Virus record (IMG/VR): IMGVR_UViG_3300023174_005153
Span: 1-20,890 of that record
Strand: one strand, 5' to 3'
DNA: 20,890 nucleotides
Source of the DNA: a virus
Shown here piece after piece: positions 6,813 to 14,308 of the stretch (its first letter is position 1; each line of letters opens with the position of its first letter). The notes below the pieces were generated by a model that searched no databases, was not told the origin of the DNA, and was given only the letters and a program-made list of their open reading frames with translations. The position numbers and the translations under genes were made by a program.

Positions 6813-7598
6813 TTAATTCCTCATCATAAAAAGTTTTTGATATGTAAACTCTATACCCGCTTCAATACCAAAAGTATCTATCTCGGGCAAATTACTTTCA
6901 CCACAATAAAACTCTAGATTTGAAGTGTTTTGTACCGTAATAGGAACAGTATACTCACCTAAAGAATTTATCATATTTGCTATATTTTTTAAAGTGTATT
7001 TGCTTTCATACGAGCAATTCACTTCTTTGTTTGGATTGACGGATACAATGTAGTGCTTTACAAGAGCGATCAAATCCTTCATGTAAAAGAAGTCCATTAT
7101 TCTATTTGTATGAATTACAATAGGTTCCTTATTCATATAGCGAGTAATGTTTGCTTTTATAAATCTAGTGTCAATTTCGTTTTCATCAAACACTCCAAAA
7201 ATTCTTATATTGTAAAAGTTGTCTGTATTTCTTATAGACTCTGCAATTTCTCTTTTACTTTGACTATAGAAAGTTTGATGAAAGAATTCAGCACCTGAAC
7301 CAAAATGTATAAGCCTGCCAAACTTATCTTTGTTTGACAGTAAGTTTTCATACATTTTTAAATTTTGATCTCGTACAGAAGGATCCTCTGTCTTGAGTCT
7401 ACTGCCTCCTGCTGCTGCACAATGTATTACTGAGTCAAAGGCTTTTCCTTTAAACCAAGTATTCAAAGAATCCGTATCACACAAATCAAAATCTGTTCTA
7501 GAGATTGTGGTTACAATAAAATTGTCATCCAAGTCCCGTTTCAGACTTTTTGCAATATATCCATTACTTCCTGTAATCAGAATACTTGGGGTTTTCAT
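6813..7598 (-). CDS. Extended SDR: NAD(P)-dependent epimerase/dehydratase or sugar reductase
   Basis: A 261-residue Rossmann-fold protein of the extended short-chain dehydrogenase family. The dinucleotide loop is TGSNGYIA (residues 9-16, GxxGxxA), the catalytic serine is probably in FGSGAEF (Ser101), and the pair Tyr111/Lys115 lies in YSQSK. It is shorter than RmlB and lacks the TDE triad of 4,6-dehydratases, so it is more likely a ketoreductase, an epimerase or a reductive epimerase acting on a nucleotide sugar. It follows the two transketolase genes directly, overlapping by four bases. In yersiniose synthesis a reductase (YerF) works after the TPP enzyme that adds a two-carbon branch, so this position fits a branch-reducing role; that is inference. 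The gene looks more AT-rich than the replication genes. Confidence 0.82.
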   Translation of the reverse strand: MKTPSILITGSNGYIAKSLKRDLDDNFIVTTISRTDFDLCDTDSLNTWFKGKAFDSVIHCAAAGGSRLKTEDPSVRDQNLKMYENLLSNKDKFGRLIHFGSGAEFFHQTFYSQSKREIAESIRNTDNFYNIRIFGVFDENEIDTRFIKANITRYMNKEPIVIHTNRIMDFFYMKDLIALVKHYIVSVNPNKEVNCSYESKYTLKNIANMINSLGEYTVPITVQNTSNLEFYCGESNLPEIDTFGIEAGIEFTYQKLFMMRN

Positions 7599-8071
7599 TT
7601 TCTCAGATTTAGATAAGTTGGACTAGGATTCGCAATCATATCGTCAAGCATCTTTTTCATTGATTCTTCGTTTGTTGGGTGAAGAATTGATAAGTTTTCT
7701 AGTGTAGTCATTATTTTCTTATCATCATCTGCCCAATGCGAAAATCCCAAATATCCATAATCCCGATCTCTACCACCACCAATAATATTCACAGGAATAT
7801 TTTCGTGACTCAAATAATTACGAATCATCTCAAATGGTCTGTAAATAGCAAAAGGAGTTATGGAGTAAACAAAAGGAATTTTGCCTTCCATAGCCAATCC
7901 TATAGCCATTCCCATCATAGCCATCTCAGAAGATCCAACATTATAAAAACGATCAGGATACTCATCTCTAATCGTATCCCATAGCCCATAACCCAAATCA
8001 CCAGTTATGAGGTAAATATCTTTATTGTGCTTCATGTGTGCGTGAAGCAAAGCGGCAAATTGCTTTCTCAT
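7595..8071 (-). CDS. Transketolase-like pyrimidine-binding subunit (compact)
   Basis: A 158-residue protein equal to the central (PYR) domain of transketolase. The segment SSEMAMMGMAIGLAMEGKIP (47-66) contains Glu49, the expected glutamate that activates the thiamine diphosphate aminopyrimidine, followed by the usual small-residue helix. The chain then ends at about the point where the PYR domain stops: the C-terminal transketolase domain, present in ordinary C-terminal subunits of about 300 residues, is absent. With the PP-binding subunit encoded just upstream it should form a TPP enzyme moving two-carbon ketol units. It overlaps that gene by four bases (ATGA) and has GGAG upstream. The context is a deoxysugar pathway, so the acceptor may be a keto sugar nucleotide and not a pentose phosphate. 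Confidence 0.85.
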   Translation of the reverse strand: MRKQFAALLHAHMKHNKDIYLITGDLGYGLWDTIRDEYPDRFYNVGSSEMAMMGMAIGLAMEGKIPFVYSITPFAIYRPFEMIRNYLSHENIPVNIIGGGRDRDYGYLGFSHWADDDKKIMTTLENLSILHPTNEESMKKMLDDMIANPSPTYLNLRK

Positions 8072-8688
8072 CCTAAAATCTCCATAGCCTGCTTATAATC
8101 ATAATCTCTCATAATATGATAGTGTGCGTTCAAGCCTTTCAAAAATGGAAACTGTTCCACAGTAGTGTAGTGTATTTTTACATCAGGCAAAAATGCCTTC
8201 AGTCTGTTCACCAAATACTCTTTATCTACTTCCATATAAGCAGCATACCCATTCACATTAACATGAACTTCTATGTTTTTTATGTTTTGCTCGTATATTG
8301 TTTTCAACGCTTCCCAAACACTACCTTCTGCACATTCCCCATCACTAACAAGAACATAAACTTTCCTATTAGGATTTGCAACTGCTCTACCAAGAGCAAC
8401 AGTAATTCCTAAACCTAAACTGCCTGTAGAGCAATAAATCTTGTTTTCTTCATCTCTGTGTGGATGTCCACCATGCTTTAAGAACATCTCTTCAGCATTA
8501 ATACCATGATACTTTTCCAAACAAGCATATAAAGCAAGAGCAGCATGTCCTGATGAAAGAATGAATATGTCGTCTTTACCCATCTGAGAATAAATTTCAT
8601 CTATCACATCAACAGACGAAAAGTAACTACCCAAATGTCCTAGTTTATTCTTATAGGCTATATCTAGTATGATTTTTTTAAGATTCAT
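8068..8688 (-). CDS. Transketolase-like TPP (PP-binding) subunit (compact)
   Basis: A 206-residue protein equal to the N-terminal domain of transketolase. Landmarks: GHLGS with His18, SSGHAALALY (45-54), STGSLGLGI (87-95), and the thiamine diphosphate-magnesium motif SDGECAEGSVWEA (115-127) with the distal asparagine at 144 or 146. The first glycine of the usual GDG is serine. Ordinary N-terminal subunits are about 270-280 residues; here the part after the TPP motif is shortened. Together with the next gene it forms a split transketolase of only 364 residues, compared with about 600-670 in housekeeping enzymes. The start has GAGGA about seven bases upstream, overlapping the stop of the FkbM gene. 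The shared deoxysugar context suggests it adds a two-carbon unit to a sugar. Confidence 0.85.
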   Translation of the reverse strand: MNLKKIILDIAYKNKLGHLGSYFSSVDVIDEIYSQMGKDDIFILSSGHAALALYACLEKYHGINAEEMFLKHGGHPHRDEENKIYCSTGSLGLGITVALGRAVANPNRKVYVLVSDGECAEGSVWEALKTIYEQNIKNIEVHVNVNGYAAYMEVDKEYLVNRLKAFLPDVKIHYTTVEQFPFLKGLNAHYHIMRDYDYKQAMEILG

Positions 8689-8697
8689 AATTTATCC

Positions 8698-9747
8698 TCA
8701 AGGAACAACATACAGAACTGTATCAGCAATAGTTCTAGAATGATGTCGCAAGTAATACTTTGAAGTATTTTTTGTATAAATTTTACTGATCCACAAAGGT
8801 ATGTTCAATATATCACTCGCTAAATGGTATACAGATATTGCTAATCTTGGACGATATTTTCTTAGCAATTGCTCTGCTCCTTTTAAAGCATCAAACTCAT
8901 ATCCTTCAATATCCATCTTTATAAAGTTCGCTGAAAAATTTGGTATACAGTCATCTATCTTAACACATTGTATCAAGGAGTTTCCGTTAGGATCTGCAAA
9001 AGAACCCATGTCACCCTGATTTTGGAATCTTATTGTTTCACTTCTTTCTCCTACTCCGCAGGGCCAAGAAATGACACCATCTCTACTTCTACCAACTTCA
9101 GATAGTTTTTTGTAGTTTATCATATCAGGTTCAAAAGCATGAACTTCTTCTATATTATACCCTAAAGACACGGCTTGTAAAATGGTATCACCTGTAAATG
9201 CTCCACAATCAATCATACGCACAGGTTCTTCTACAGGCGGTATATTTGTGGGGAAGTATAGGATTGGATTTATGGAAGGAAAAATATCCTTTCCAGTTTT
9301 CACAAATTCTACAAATGCATCAAAGACCTGCACACTTTCTGAATCTGCCAACAGATCACGAACCATCTTAAATTCTGCATCACAATTTATCCACTCTTTT
9401 GCAGATATGGGTGCTGGACATCTTTTAGTATTATTATAATATTCTTCACACCAATCGCCAAAACTAATAATTCTTCCCCATCCATCATCAATTAATCTTT
9501 TTGTTATGACTGCGGTATCAAACGCAGGATTTAAGATAGCCATGATAACAACACTATTTTGTTTAATTTCTTTGGTTATCGTTTCAGATTTTGGTGACAG
9601 TATAGGAATACCACTCAGTCCCTTTGTTCCTGAACAATTATCATCAAGTATTCCGGTTATAGAAGCACCTTCTCGCAGTATGCCACCAATGAGCCAAGAT
9701 GCTGCTCCACCGCCTCCAAATAGCCAAGTATGTTTATATGAATTCAT
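8698..9747 (-). CDS. Two-domain FkbM methyltransferase with N-terminal nucleotide-binding-like domain
   Basis: A 349-residue protein. Residues 170-320 form an FkbM SAM-dependent methyltransferase: MIDCGAFTGDT (178-188), HAFEPD (203-208) and IKMDIEGYEF (276-285). Residues 1-100 look like a separate Rossmann-like domain, with WLFGGGGAASWL near the start and ITGILDDN at 30-37. This resembles the N-terminal part of PglD-type acetyltransferases and of some FkbM fusions in which a UDP-sugar or other nucleotide may bind. The enzyme probably O-methylates a sugar made or placed by the surrounding enzymes. It starts five bases after the RmlB stop codon with only a weak GGT upstream. Its FkbM motifs differ from those of the protein at 5247-5849, so the two are distant relatives and not a recent duplication. 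Confidence 0.85.
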   Translation of the reverse strand: MNSYKHTWLFGGGGAASWLIGGILREGASITGILDDNCSGTKGLSGIPILSPKSETITKEIKQNSVVIMAILNPAFDTAVITKRLIDDGWGRIISFGDWCEEYYNNTKRCPAPISAKEWINCDAEFKMVRDLLADSESVQVFDAFVEFVKTGKDIFPSINPILYFPTNIPPVEEPVRMIDCGAFTGDTILQAVSLGYNIEEVHAFEPDMINYKKLSEVGRSRDGVISWPCGVGERSETIRFQNQGDMGSFADPNGNSLIQCVKIDDCIPNFSANFIKMDIEGYEFDALKGAEQLLRKYRPRLAISVYHLASDILNIPLWISKIYTKNTSKYYLRHHSRTIADTVLYVVP

Positions 9748-9751
9748 GGAT

Positions 9752-10702
9752 TTACCAAATAAAATTATCTTTATAGTACTTCACTATATTTGTAAGTTCT
9801 TCATCAAAGTTTTTGATGGGTTCCCAACCCAAACTACGAAGTTTTGAATCATCTAAAGCATATCTCACATCTTGTCCAGGTCTGCTATAAGAGAAATCTA
9901 TGTAATTAGAAATTTCCTTTTCACTAACACCACTAACCTTTAAGATTTTATTGATAGTTTCCAAATTTGATTGCTCAAACCCGCCACAAATATTGTATAT
10001 CTCATTAGTTGTTTCAGACTCAATAATTGTAATTATTGCTCGTGCGGTATCTTCTGCGTGTAACCAATTTCTTACTGGAGTGCCATTATTGTGTAGAGGT
10101 ATCTTTCTACCCAAGTGCAAATACTTACAAGTTTTTGGTATTAGTTTCTCAACATATTGACCAATACCATAGTTGTTGGTGGGTCTGACTATGACATATG
10201 GAATCTTATAAGTTCTAGCCCAAGCAAGAACCAACATGTCGGCAGCAGCCTTGGTTGCAGAATATGGATTAGATGGCTTCAGTATATCGTGCTCGGTATG
10301 TGCGCCTTCTGTAATATCTCCGTAAACCTCATCTGTACTAAAATGAATCAAAGTTGGCGTTTTGCCATTTTCTTGTCTATAGTTCTTAATAAGTTCAAGT
10401 ATATTATGAACACCGTTTATATTAGAACTTATAAAATCATCGCTATTAGCAATGGAATTACCAACATGGGTTTCCGCAGCAGTATTGATTATATAATCGC
10501 AATCATACAAAAACTTTAGATCATTGATATCACATTGAACGAATGAAAAATTTGGGTAAAGTTTAAACTCATCCAAAAGATTATCGTTTGCAGCATAAGT
10601 CAATTTATCAACACCCTTGACATGCCATCCCCTTTGTAAACAAAGGCGAGTGATATAAGAACCTATGAACCCCAAGCAACCTGTTACATATACAACCTTC
10701 AT
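9752..10702 (-). CDS. RmlB-type nucleotide-sugar 4,6-dehydratase
   Basis: A 316-residue extended SDR closely resembling dTDP-glucose 4,6-dehydratase RmlB. The NAD loop is TGCLGFIGS (7-15), VDKLTYAAN at 31-39 matches the RmlB wording, the TDE active-site triad is in STDEVYG (122-128: Thr123, Asp124, Glu125), the catalytic pair is Tyr147/Lys151 in YSATK, and RPTNNYG is at 173-179. It converts an NDP-hexose to the NDP-4-keto-6-deoxyhexose, the branch point for 6-deoxy and 3,6-dideoxy sugars. RmlA, RmlC and RmlD are not seen in the window. GGGG lies six bases before the ATG, inside the end of the DUF5672 gene. The protein is slightly shorter than E. coli RmlB (about 360). CDP-glucose 4,6-dehydratase (RfbG) would be the alternative because RfbH is nearby, but the motifs favour RmlB. 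Confidence 0.9.
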   Translation of the reverse strand: MKVVYVTGCLGFIGSYITRLCLQRGWHVKGVDKLTYAANDNLLDEFKLYPNFSFVQCDINDLKFLYDCDYIINTAAETHVGNSIANSDDFISSNINGVHNILELIKNYRQENGKTPTLIHFSTDEVYGDITEGAHTEHDILKPSNPYSATKAAADMLVLAWARTYKIPYVIVRPTNNYGIGQYVEKLIPKTCKYLHLGRKIPLHNNGTPVRNWLHAEDTARAIITIIESETTNEIYNICGGFEQSNLETINKILKVSGVSEKEISNYIDFSYSRPGQDVRYALDDSKLRSLGWEPIKNFDEELTNIVKYYKDNFIW

Positions 10703-10704
10703 GT

Positions 10705-11385
10705 TTACCCCAATTCTATTGTATCTAATAGTTTAATTTTGTCTTGGAACATCTGATAGTTACCATCGTGAACGGATACTGTTTCAGGATTTCCTCTACC
10801 GTGGAAACCAAAACAATTATCTAAATTATACTCACACTCTGGTATTTTTGATTCCAATGAAAACTTCATTGCAATCTCTAGTGGAGCATATTTGCAACCA
10901 CAACCTGTATAGTAATCGTAGTAATCATTAGTTTGTTCGGTATCATCGTGCGTTCCGAGATATCGGATATTTCTGGTTAACTGTATGAATTTATTGCTAC
11001 GAAAAACAAAGCCACCATTTCCAACACGATTTCTTTGACCCATATTCTTCCACGGTGCTCCAATATAATCGTATCTTAAAAATTCATCAGTCCAAAGATG
11101 TGGGTTTATTACAAATCCATCGTCGTGTATCATTAAACAATACTTAGTTTTAACGATATCTGGTAGGCTTTCATAAGTAAATACACTAGACAACTTATGA
11201 GTAGTTAAATTCGTTTCTATGAACTTTATACTTGATGGTAGATTTTCTGGCTTATTGTTGCTGACCAATATCATTTCAGCAAAATCAATATCCTTTGAAC
11301 TATACAGCAAAGCCTTAGCACTCTGCTCAGGCTTAACACAATTAAATGACAGTAGAGTAATATCTCTTAGTTGTAATTTACTCAT
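10705..11385 (-). CDS. DUF5672-family putative glycosyltransferase
   Basis: A 226-residue protein with the pattern I recall for DUF5672: IHDDGFVINPHLW (86-98), then YDYIGAPW (105-112), VGNGGFVFRS (121-130), a C-terminal acidic LEIAMKF region (169-175), and FGFHG (192-196). The IHDDG segment ends a hydrophobic strand and resembles the DxD of GT-A enzymes; family members occur in bacterial glycan clusters and near other transferases. It is probably a cytoplasmic glycosyltransferase, and the donor is unknown. It overlaps the RfbH gene by four bases (ATGA) and is followed by RmlB after two bases, so it sits inside the deoxysugar block and may transfer that sugar. No membrane segment is present. 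Confidence 0.78.
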   Translation of the reverse strand: MSKLQLRDITLLSFNCVKPEQSAKALLYSSKDIDFAEMILVSNNKPENLPSSIKFIETNLTTHKLSSVFTYESLPDIVKTKYCLMIHDDGFVINPHLWTDEFLRYDYIGAPWKNMGQRNRVGNGGFVFRSNKFIQLTRNIRYLGTHDDTEQTNDYYDYYTGCGCKYAPLEIAMKFSLESKIPECEYNLDNCFGFHGRGNPETVSVHDGNYQMFQDKIKLLDTIELG

Positions 11386-12725
11386 AGTGTGCTATTCATA
11401 ATAGGAAGATGAATTCTTTTCTTTGTCAAGAAATCATCAAGAGTAGATTCAATGTAATCTAAATGTTCATCTGTTATAACAGGACTTGTGCCCAAGAAGA
11501 AGGTGTCAGTAGTAACCTTTCTTGCGTTTGGATAGTTTCTAATAACCTTCTCCGAATCCATAAGACCTTCATATGCGGGTTGCAACATTACATTTCCTGC
11601 AAAGTATGGTCTCGTTTGAATCTTATTCTCTTCAAAGTAATCAACAATATCGTTTCTCTTGAATGGACATCCATCCTTCAAGGTTACTGCAAAAGCAAAC
11701 CAAGCAGGATCTGCCTTTTCAGTAGCCTTTGGTATTATAAAATACTCCTCATACTTTGAGAAAATTTGGCATAGTCTACGATGATTATGCTTTCTGATTT
11801 CAATAATTTTTGGCAGTCTCTTCAACTGAACCAATCCCATAGCCGCTTGCTGATCTGTAGGCTTAAGGTTGTATCCAATCTCATCATACACATACTTGTG
11901 GTCAAATATTTCATTTGGAAGAGCAGGAAGCCAGTTTGAGAATCTCTTTTTGCAACTTCCATTCTTTAGTAGATTTGCTTGCTTGCCAACACAATAGCAT
12001 CCTCTACCCCACTCACGGAAACTTCTAGCAATAGTTTCTTGATCTTTGGTTTTGCAAGAAACAAAACCGCCTTCTCCCATAGTTATATGATGTGCAGGAT
12101 AGAAAGAACAAGAAGCAAGTTCTCCAAAACTTCCTAATTCTTTACCATCATATGTTGAACCCAAAGCATCGCAACAATCCTCAAGAAGAATCAAACCATA
12201 CTTCTCAACAATTTGCATCAATCTATCCATGTTTGGAGGATTGCCCAAAACATGAGCGAAGGTAATAATCTTGCATCCTTCCTTTGCCTTTTCTTCAACC
12301 TGATCCAAGTTCAAGTTTAAAGTGTCTAGATCAATATCAACAAACACAGGTTCAAATCCTACCTGAAAGATGGGATTGATGGTTGTTGGAAATCCTGCAA
12401 TAGGAGTGATTACTTTTGTTCCTTTGGGGAAATTATACAAACGCTTTGATGTCATGCAAGACATCATTATTAGATTTGAACTGCTGCCACTATTGGTTAG
12501 AATGCCGTATTCCTTGCCCATTAGATTAGGAAACTGATGTTCAAACCTAATACCGTTTGTTCCGAGAACCAGCCAACCTTCAAGAAGAGTCTTTACCGAT
12601 TCGGTATACTCTTCTGTTCCGAAATATGGGCCAGCGTATTGAACCCAATCAACACCAGCCTTCCACTTCTTGGAGACTTGCTTTTCTTTTATAAACTCTT
12701 CAACTGCTTTAAGTATGTGTTCCAT
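11382..12725 (-). CDS. rfbH: RfbH/DdhC-type NDP-4-keto-6-deoxyhexose 3-dehydrase (E1)
   Basis: A 447-residue protein of the DegT/DnrJ/EryC1/StrS fold with the marks of E1 dehydrases, not aminotransferases. In SFYPAHHITMGEGG (197-210) His202 stands where aminotransferases have the PLP lysine. Cysteines 175, 233 and 235 reproduce the CX57CX1C part of the E1 [2Fe-2S] motif, and Cys248 could be the fourth ligand. The enzyme uses pyridoxamine phosphate and, with a reductase (E3, DdhD), removes the C3 hydroxyl of an NDP-4-keto-6-deoxyhexose. No E3 gene is in the window. Shared wording with Salmonella RfbH includes EDCCDALGSTYDGK and FDHKYVYDEIGYNLKPTDQQAA-like blocks (compare GYDHKYTYSHLGYNLKITD). 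The frame is open upstream to a TTG at 12767; the ATG at 12723-12725 fits the family start better. It lies 20 bases after the two-domain transferase. Confidence 0.9.
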   Translation of the reverse strand: MEHILKAVEEFIKEKQVSKKWKAGVDWVQYAGPYFGTEEYTESVKTLLEGWLVLGTNGIRFEHQFPNLMGKEYGILTNSGSSSNLIMMSCMTSKRLYNFPKGTKVITPIAGFPTTINPIFQVGFEPVFVDIDLDTLNLNLDQVEEKAKEGCKIITFAHVLGNPPNMDRLMQIVEKYGLILLEDCCDALGSTYDGKELGSFGELASCSFYPAHHITMGEGGFVSCKTKDQETIARSFREWGRGCYCVGKQANLLKNGSCKKRFSNWLPALPNEIFDHKYVYDEIGYNLKPTDQQAAMGLVQLKRLPKIIEIRKHNHRRLCQIFSKYEEYFIIPKATEKADPAWFAFAVTLKDGCPFKRNDIVDYFEENKIQTRPYFAGNVMLQPAYEGLMDSEKVIRNYPNARKVTTDTFFLGTSPVITDEHLDYIESTLDDFLTKKRIHLPIMNSTL

Positions 12726-12745: not shown

Positions 12746-14308
12746 TTAGTGTATACCAAATCCCCAATCATTCAAGTTAGGAATGCTATATTTTTTCACA
12801 TTTTCTTTGATATATCTGTATGCATTTGTATTTTCAACATTTTTATCTCGTTCTGCATAAATGTTTTCAGGTACTCGCAATTCAAATGGAAATGGCACAC
12901 AAGTCCAATTAAAATTATTTACAGAACGATCATACTCTACAGGATCTATAATATCAACCTTGTGAAGTAACTTATTGACATAATCCCAAACCTTATAGTG
13001 ATATTGCTTAATAGCAATTGCTCTTCTATCTGCCAACCAACTCAAATGGGATACAAACAAATGAGGAACATCAATAGAACCGTATCTATCTGGTGTAGGC
13101 ACATGCTCTCCATGAGTTTGCTTGTTCTTATAAACAGCCCTCTTGCTGTAAGATCCTATTCTATCAACAGGATGCATTTCCCATTTACCGTCAACTCTTA
13201 TTTCATTCTTTTTGGTGTATTGAATCCACTTACAATAGAATAAGGTGTCTTTATTATTTTCAAGAAGTTCGTTTAACTGCTCTTTGGTTACATTGCCATC
13301 AAGATACTCATCAGCATCCAAACAAATAATCTTACCTGTATATTTGAATGCTTCATCAAACATTCTTTGTCTAGTAGTTGATTCAAAGAAATCAATCTCT
13401 CCAGGATTAGTATGTGTTCTTAAAACTGCGAGGATGTTATACTTTGATGCGTTCTCAATCAAAAATTCGTAACTACCATCAGTTGATTGATCATCCATGA
13501 AAACAAATCCATCAGCATACTTCTTCCAAATTGGCAACATATGCTTCAACAAATGCAGTTCGTTCTTTATCATACTAATCTGAACTATAGATGGATTTGA
13601 TCCCTGCGACGAATTACTTTGAAAATTATTTGCTTTTCTTTTCAAGTAAACATCTCTATCGTGAGAACTACCAACATGCATATTATGCTGCATCAAAGCA
13701 TCCTGATTTTCTGCCCATCTATGAATTATTGGGCGACTATTGATATGCCTCAATACTCCTAGAGATTCAAACACTTCTGTTTGTTCGTTGTCGCACCATT
13801 CAGACTTATAATCAGGATGATAGATGTAACCAAACTTATCATATAGTTTTCTACCAATAACTGGAAGAGTTATGAGAGTTTTGAATCCATCAACTCCCTT
13901 TTCCTCCAAACGAGGATCATTATTGTAATTCAATGATCCATCCATATTTGGAAACTCTCTAACCATATCTTGTACTATAATCTCATCCCAACCATTATCA
14001 ACGGGTTCCATATCATCTGCGGTAGAAATGATTATATCCCAATCGGTTGATGGAACATCTCTATTGATAGCAGCAATTTTTCCTCCGCGCTCTCCATAAT
14101 GATATTCAACCAAGGTATTTTCGGTCTTGGGAAGATTCTCCAGAAAATGCTTGATTCTAGAATTGTTTAGCAACAGATCATCAGAATCCATGCTAATCAC
14201 ATAAGTGATCTTATTCTTTCCTGATGCTTTGTCCATGTAGGCACGAAGATTATTCATAAACTTACCTGGACGCTGACGAGTTGGATACTTTAAAATTATG
14301 TGCTTCAT
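12746..14308 (-). CDS. Two-domain glycosyltransferase (GT-A-like plus GT2-like)
   Basis: A 520-residue protein with two transferase-like halves. Residues 1-225 match the stand-alone protein at 15814-16503: a TRQRPGKFM start, VISMDSDD (37-44), ISTADDM (94-100), YIYHPDY (161-167), and CDNEQTEVF (172-180). A polar linker, SNSSQGSNPS (231-240), follows. Residues 240-430 form a GT2-like domain: MIKNE (246-250), FMDDQSTDGSYEFL (270-283), and the DxD in CLDADEYL (329-336), as in the family often named glycosyl transferase 2_4. It may add two residues in succession or synthesise a disaccharide unit. No membrane helices are seen. An ATG four codons upstream (14320) is possible, but GGGA sits about seven bases before the ATG at 14306-14308 and homology begins there. 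Two halves clear, donors unknown. Confidence 0.83.
   Translation of the reverse strand: MKHIILKYPTRQRPGKFMNNLRAYMDKASGKNKITYVISMDSDDLLLNNSRIKHFLENLPKTENTLVEYHYGERGGKIAAINRDVPSTDWDIIISTADDMEPVDNGWDEIIVQDMVREFPNMDGSLNYNNDPRLEEKGVDGFKTLITLPVIGRKLYDKFGYIYHPDYKSEWCDNEQTEVFESLGVLRHINSRPIIHRWAENQDALMQHNMHVGSSHDRDVYLKRKANNFQSNSSQGSNPSIVQISMIKNELHLLKHMLPIWKKYADGFVFMDDQSTDGSYEFLIENASKYNILAVLRTHTNPGEIDFFESTTRQRMFDEAFKYTGKIICLDADEYLDGNVTKEQLNELLENNKDTLFYCKWIQYTKKNEIRVDGKWEMHPVDRIGSYSKRAVYKNKQTHGEHVPTPDRYGSIDVPHLFVSHLSWLADRRAIAIKQYHYKVWDYVNKLLHKVDIIDPVEYDRSVNNFNWTCVPFPFELRVPENIYAERDKNVENTNAYRYIKENVKKYSIPNLNDWGFGIH

Follow-up and report, generated by a model that had tools for sequence, protein, structure and literature searches.

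A T4-like phage appears to carry, in a run of seven genes, a pathway to a C4-branched 3,6-dideoxy sugar in which an RmlB-like dehydratase, an RfbH-type 3-dehydrase, a two-gene transketolase (TKN and TKC) transferring a hydroxyacetyl group to C4 and a reducing SDR would act in turn; on balance, this reading is probable. What the sequence shows directly is which genes are present, how well they are conserved, their enzyme classes and the active-site pattern; all the reactions, their order, the donor, the branch position and the nucleotide are inferred from these. The window, i.e. the whole stretch of DNA analysed, is an entire virus record of 20,890 bases. Its seven genes lie on the minus strand between 6813 and 12725 and were all found at the place, on the strand and in the order given in a preliminary description of this DNA:

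11382..12725, minus strand: RfbH/E1-type NDP-4-keto-6-deoxyhexose 3-dehydrase, 447 aa (NF011936; best PDB match 3bcx)
10705..11385, minus strand: DUF5672 protein (Pfam DUF5672), a passenger between RfbH and RmlB
9752..10702, minus strand: RmlB-like NDP-glucose 4,6-dehydratase, dTDP-type by similarity, 316 aa (TIGR01181)
8698..9747, minus strand: FkbM-type methyltransferase (TIGR01444), a passenger between RmlB and TKN
8068..8688, minus strand: TKN, 206 aa, one half (PP, for thiamine diphosphate and Mg) of a minimal split transketolase (Transketolase_N)
7595..8071, minus strand: TKC, the Pyr half of the same split transketolase, 158 aa (Transket_pyr)
6813..7598, minus strand: SDR of the NAD-dependent epimerase/dehydratase type, proposed branch-ketone reductase, 261 aa (Epimerase/RmlD_sub_bind)

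ATGA overlaps occur at three gene joints (8068/8071, 7595/7598 and 11382/11385), and TKN, TKC and SDR are joined to one another in this way. The start of RfbH was taken as the ATG at 12725; an earlier in-frame TTG lies at 12767. The DNA polymerase of this phage shows approximately 50% identity to those of cyanomyoviruses, the nearest among isolated phages, and psbA, used as a test for a cyanobacterial host, was absent from all 15 long related viral contigs.

In the proposed pathway, the RmlB-like enzyme would convert NDP-glucose, probably dTDP-glucose from the host, to NDP-4-keto-6-deoxyglucose. RfbH, with PMP and an Fe-S cluster, would then strip the 3-hydroxyl to give NDP-4-keto-3,6-dideoxyglucose, using electrons from the host. 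TKN and TKC would attach a two-carbon hydroxyacetyl group, with a ketose phosphate or hydroxypyruvate as its donor, to the C4 ketone, generating a tertiary alcohol, and the SDR would reduce the new ketone to yield NDP-3,6-dideoxy-4-C-(1,2-dihydroxyethyl)hexose. This product would be an octose resembling yersiniose with one more hydroxyl group, and a nearby glycosyltransferase could pass it to a host surface glycan, the virion or DNA. As a test for DNA as the modification target, a thymidylate-synthase-type gene was sought; it is present in 7 of 15 long contigs and absent from the near relative of the window (G007).

The RmlB-like protein scores 314.2 bits against TIGR01181, the dTDP-glucose 4,6-dehydratase model, which is under the cut-off of 365.1 but by far its best family, as compared with 75.3 bits against the CDP-glucose model. 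As judged from sequence, dTDP is more likely than CDP as the sugar nucleotide, whereas known RfbH enzymes act on CDP sugars, which tells against the proposed pathway. RfbH lies over its curated cut-off (NF011936, 468.5 bits vs. 423) and matches 3bcx (E1) best in the PDB, with an E-value of 1.7e-109. A catalytic His in SFYPAHHITMGEGG replaces the PLP lysine, and C185, C243, C245 and C258, which we take to be Fe-S ligands, align with residues 193, 251, 253 and 261 of 3bcx; the His and the four Fe-S-type Cys are invariant among 12 aligned sequences. RfbH normally requires a partner reductase (E3, with Fer2 and flavin). No Fer2 protein was found in 15 long related phage contigs, which are possibly incomplete, and the electrons may come from the host; an Actinomarina genome assembly searched for RfbH contained none.

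Relatives of TKN and TKC were found in 239 and 357 viral stretches, respectively. Among 69 viral clusters, all five core genes (RfbH, RmlB, TKN, TKC and SDR) are in view in 40, where presence means lying within the fetched stretch (up to approximately 10 kb on each side, many stretches being truncated) rather than adjacency. Counted singly, RfbH is in view in 44, RmlB in 61 and SDR in 67, the last being 3' of TKC in all 67 and directly so in 64. This co-occurrence and the dN/dS values, which span 0.03-0.24 in those 8 of the 15 comparisons that had a computable dS, show that the gene set is not a chance assembly. Gene order varies; in 16 of the 69, RfbH follows the transketolase. DUF5672 and FkbM had been counted as part of the pathway in the preliminary description; they occur in only 8 and 3 of the 69 viral clusters and are passengers.

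Clusters lacking RfbH often contain another dehydrase. In 15 of them a stand-in has the catalytic His without the Fe-S Cys (the nearest solved relatives of the one in L133 are E1 and ColD), and in one further cluster the stand-in is a ColD-like protein. That one kind of 3-dehydrase can be exchanged for another hints at the importance of 3-deoxygenation to the gene set. A DegT fragment is all that is seen in L093. Gene order, stand-ins and residue tables were compiled on 73 clusters, i.e. the 69 viral clusters and four MAG contigs (L031, L033, L035 and L038); a nearby DegT protein in L038 carries the aminotransferase lysine. RmlB is not in view in 6 of the 15 clusters with a stand-in dehydrase. 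In the RmlB-less viral records G003, G004, G011, G017 and G018, a PF16363 search gave nothing over the cut-off, while in G009, a 269 kb contig, a PF16363 dehydratase is present but far from the transketolase. The missing 4,6-dehydratase is perhaps supplied by the host.

Split transketolases of the phage type are also found in bacteria. Scores against a phage profile (A2) served to select 53 bacterial loci, comprising all 15 matches of at least 100 bits in one search, then 21 of 37 and 17 of 19 in two others, and this choice by likeness favours the Gly/Leu pattern described below. CDP-sugar genes are linked in 15 of the 53, as rfbF-rfbG-rfbH in nine and as rfbF-rfbG without rfbH in six; a ColD-like dehydrase with a GDP-fucose-synthase-like SDR is found in two further loci, and the other 36 lack all of these sets. 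The same gene sets are near none of 20 ordinary split transketolases (Fisher p 0.004), these controls being hand-picked among lower-scoring matches of split-gene length, with TKN in view in 19. Bacterial gene names rest on our own profile and phmmer scores, with a check by curated models in L248, L243 and L247. These models confirm RfbF and RfbH in L248 and L243, and the RfbG of L248 reaches 213.9 bits, under the curated cut-off of 278.45. An SDR lies directly 3' of TKC in L279, L326 and L324, and 1.1 kb further on in L329. The nine rfbFGH-linked enzymes all fall outside the viral clade in a quickly built tree, so that either the link has several origins or the tree is unreliable.

Hydroxyacetyl branching could also precede 3-deoxygenation, do without it or take place at a different carbon, with RfbH serving a different branch of the pathway. 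This is unlikely, as a 3-dehydrase of some kind is in view in 60 of the 69 viral clusters, yet it would account for the eight clusters in which RmlB, transketolase and SDR are present with no visible 3-dehydrase, for the six bacterial loci in which the transketolase has rfbF-rfbG but not rfbH nearby, and for extra keto-sugar enzymes such as the ColD-like protein of L118. Because of these eight clusters, these six loci and the RmlB-less clusters with a stand-in, neither 3-deoxygenation nor RmlB is obligatory for the family.

TKN and TKC score over the cut-offs of PF00456 (Transketolase_N) and PF02779 (Transket_pyr), and in alignment the histidines typical of transketolase are retained, together with the catalytic Glu and the metal site. 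The nearest PDB entry to TKN by both profile and structure is the split transketolase 6yak (predicted structure, pLDDT 91.4), and that of TKC is 6yaj. On the acceptor side, every one of the 69 viral clusters and all nine rfbFGH-linked bacterial enzymes have Gly at TKC position 100, where 15 of 20 controls have His. At position 108, Leu is present in 68 of the 69 and in all nine, whereas 14 of the 20 controls have Asp. These sites presumably correspond to His461 and Asp469 of ordinary transketolase (E. coli numbering). Elsewhere in bacteria, Leu108 is found in one of six rfbFG-linked enzymes (Gln in three, Ala in two), in neither of two ColD-linked enzymes (Ser) and in 22 of 36 others.

These residues bear on a second alternative, which we regard as quite improbable, in which the sugar is an unbranched 3,6-dideoxyhexose, the SDR is a 4-ketoreductase and the transketolase is a pentose-phosphate enzyme supplying sugar phosphates. 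The best PDB match of the SDR by profile is 1vl0, an RmlD ortholog, and 4-ketoreductases of the RmlD and GDP-fucose synthase type do resemble it; in a fold search of its predicted structure (pLDDT 94.2), NDP-sugar epimerases and reductases are tied at Z of about 25-27. In L032-L034, moreover, TKN-TKC-SDR lies beside RfaE-like heptose genes with RmlB and RfbH not in view, which would suit a ketose-making transketolase. However, the acceptor-site His and Asp are gone in nearly all viral members, and the third transketolase domain is absent, with no match in TKN or TKC and the Pyr match filling residues 1-156 of the 158 aa of TKC. The ATGA overlaps couple TKN and TKC to the SDR, and the CDP-sugar link described above is confined to the phage-type loci in comparison with the controls.

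On the donor side, TKN H75, which by alignment corresponds to E. coli H100, is His in 71 of 72 sequences (one gap), and TKC H112 (H473) is His in all 69 viral clusters. Only four of nine rfbFGH-linked and two of six rfbFG-linked bacterial enzymes have a His aligned to H75, in a loop that may be misaligned in the bacterial sequences, and for this reason the donor-side argument is limited to the viral enzymes, in which the donor side appears to be kept and the acceptor side changed. TKN has weaker matches to TPP_enzyme_C (25.1 bits) and several decarboxylase-type NCBIfam models, none to E1_dh at E 0.001, with Transketolase_N best, and E1 subunits rank below 6yak in its structure search. A single decarboxylase-type ThDP flavoenzyme like YerE was not found; there are two genes, with Transketolase_N and Transket_pyr as best Pfam families. 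According to PMC10787763, variants at H100 or H473 enable E. coli transketolase to use pyruvate, which the wild type cannot use. A yersiniose-like sugar, made by transfer of acetyl from pyruvate by the two-gene enzyme, is very doubtful, since the fold and profile of this enzyme are nearest transketolase and the H100/H473 equivalents are kept in the viral proteins. In its favour are the decarboxylase-type matches of TKN, the similar keto sugar on which YerE works and the proposed use of pyruvate by the two-subunit AviB1/AviB2 (PMC12247030 and PMC4753412).

Hydroxyacetyl transfer by a transketolase is the favoured reading, and known systems provide several points of comparison. In yersiniose A synthesis, the earlier steps are carried out by a 4,6-dehydratase and a 3-dehydrase (RfbF/RfbG/RfbH, E3). 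A thiamine-dependent C2 addition to C4 of NDP-4-keto-3,6-dideoxyhexose and a reduction follow (PMC12247030 and PMC4753412). YerE is a single decarboxylase-type flavoenzyme that uses pyruvate, whereas the phage locus has a two-gene transketolase, a dTDP-like 4,6-dehydratase and no E3 in view, and is phage-borne. The suggestion that a 4,6-dehydratase, a 3-dehydrase, a transketolase in place of YerE and a reductase form one pathway gains support from sequence comparison, because their genes are found side by side in phages and also, accompanied by those for CDP-glucose enzymes, in bacteria, and because the donor side of the transketolase is kept while its acceptor side is changed. AviB1/AviB2 and the alphaKADH2 enzymes, to which AviB1/AviB2 presumably belong, are two-subunit thiamine enzymes branching deoxysugars, at C4 for avilamycin (PMC12247030 and PMC4753412); their donor, by proposal for AviB1/AviB2, is pyruvate, unlike the transketolase-type phage pair.

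For miharamycin and amipurimycin, split-gene transketolases have been proposed to move hydroxyacetyl to a keto sugar; a 2025 review (PMC12247030), according to which no enzyme proposed for this role is yet characterised in vitro, counts 13 further candidates, all from Streptomycetes. The gene combination, initially thought to be new, is therefore less unique, and bacterial clusters share it. Compared by description, the present enzymes differ in being from phages and from bacterial clusters with 3-dehydrases, and the phage subunits have only 206 and 158 aa. The nearest solved relative of both subunits, the Carboxydothermus hydrogenoformans split transketolase (6yaj/6yak), has the same domain split over two genes, but its subunits are full-size with the ordinary His/Asp at the acceptor site; it has been assayed on aldehydes (PMC7661550). 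In cyanophage S-B05, as here, a gene cluster encodes both a dTDP-glucose 4,6-dehydratase and a protein like RfbH, with no transketolase listed in the stretch shown, unlike the present locus. A literature search, with most subscription papers outside its scope, returned no paper joining phage, transketolase and branched sugar.

More broadly, it stands at about an even chance that two-gene transketolases of a widespread family, which are minimal in phages and full-size in bacteria, have come to act on ketones rather than aldehydes, probably on more than one occasion. They would make 4-C-(1,2-dihydroxyethyl)-3,6-dideoxyhexoses, or the 3-hydroxy equivalents, for surface glycans, both phage-directed and bacterial. 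If so, C4-branched deoxysugars would have one more natural route in addition to those of YerE and AviB1/AviB2. T4-like phages would be making a rare octose, pointing to a change of the host surface or decoration of the virion or DNA. A ketone-accepting transketolase would also open a class of functionalised tertiary alcohols, a research goal named in the 2025 review (PMC12247030). The question is directly testable, given the very small size of the phage enzymes, the presumed partners encoded next to them and the many relatives.

Among isolated phages, tblastn at E 1e-5 found TKN in 14 of 50,697 records (29-35% identity), TKC once (29%) and SDR in none. Campylobacter phages were among the matches of a wider search (E up to 5). 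In CPt10, the only one examined, no sugar-nucleotide genes are annotated within 9 kb of the thiamine-binding protein, and the transketolase of Campylobacter phage CP21 was matched in a viral structure library.

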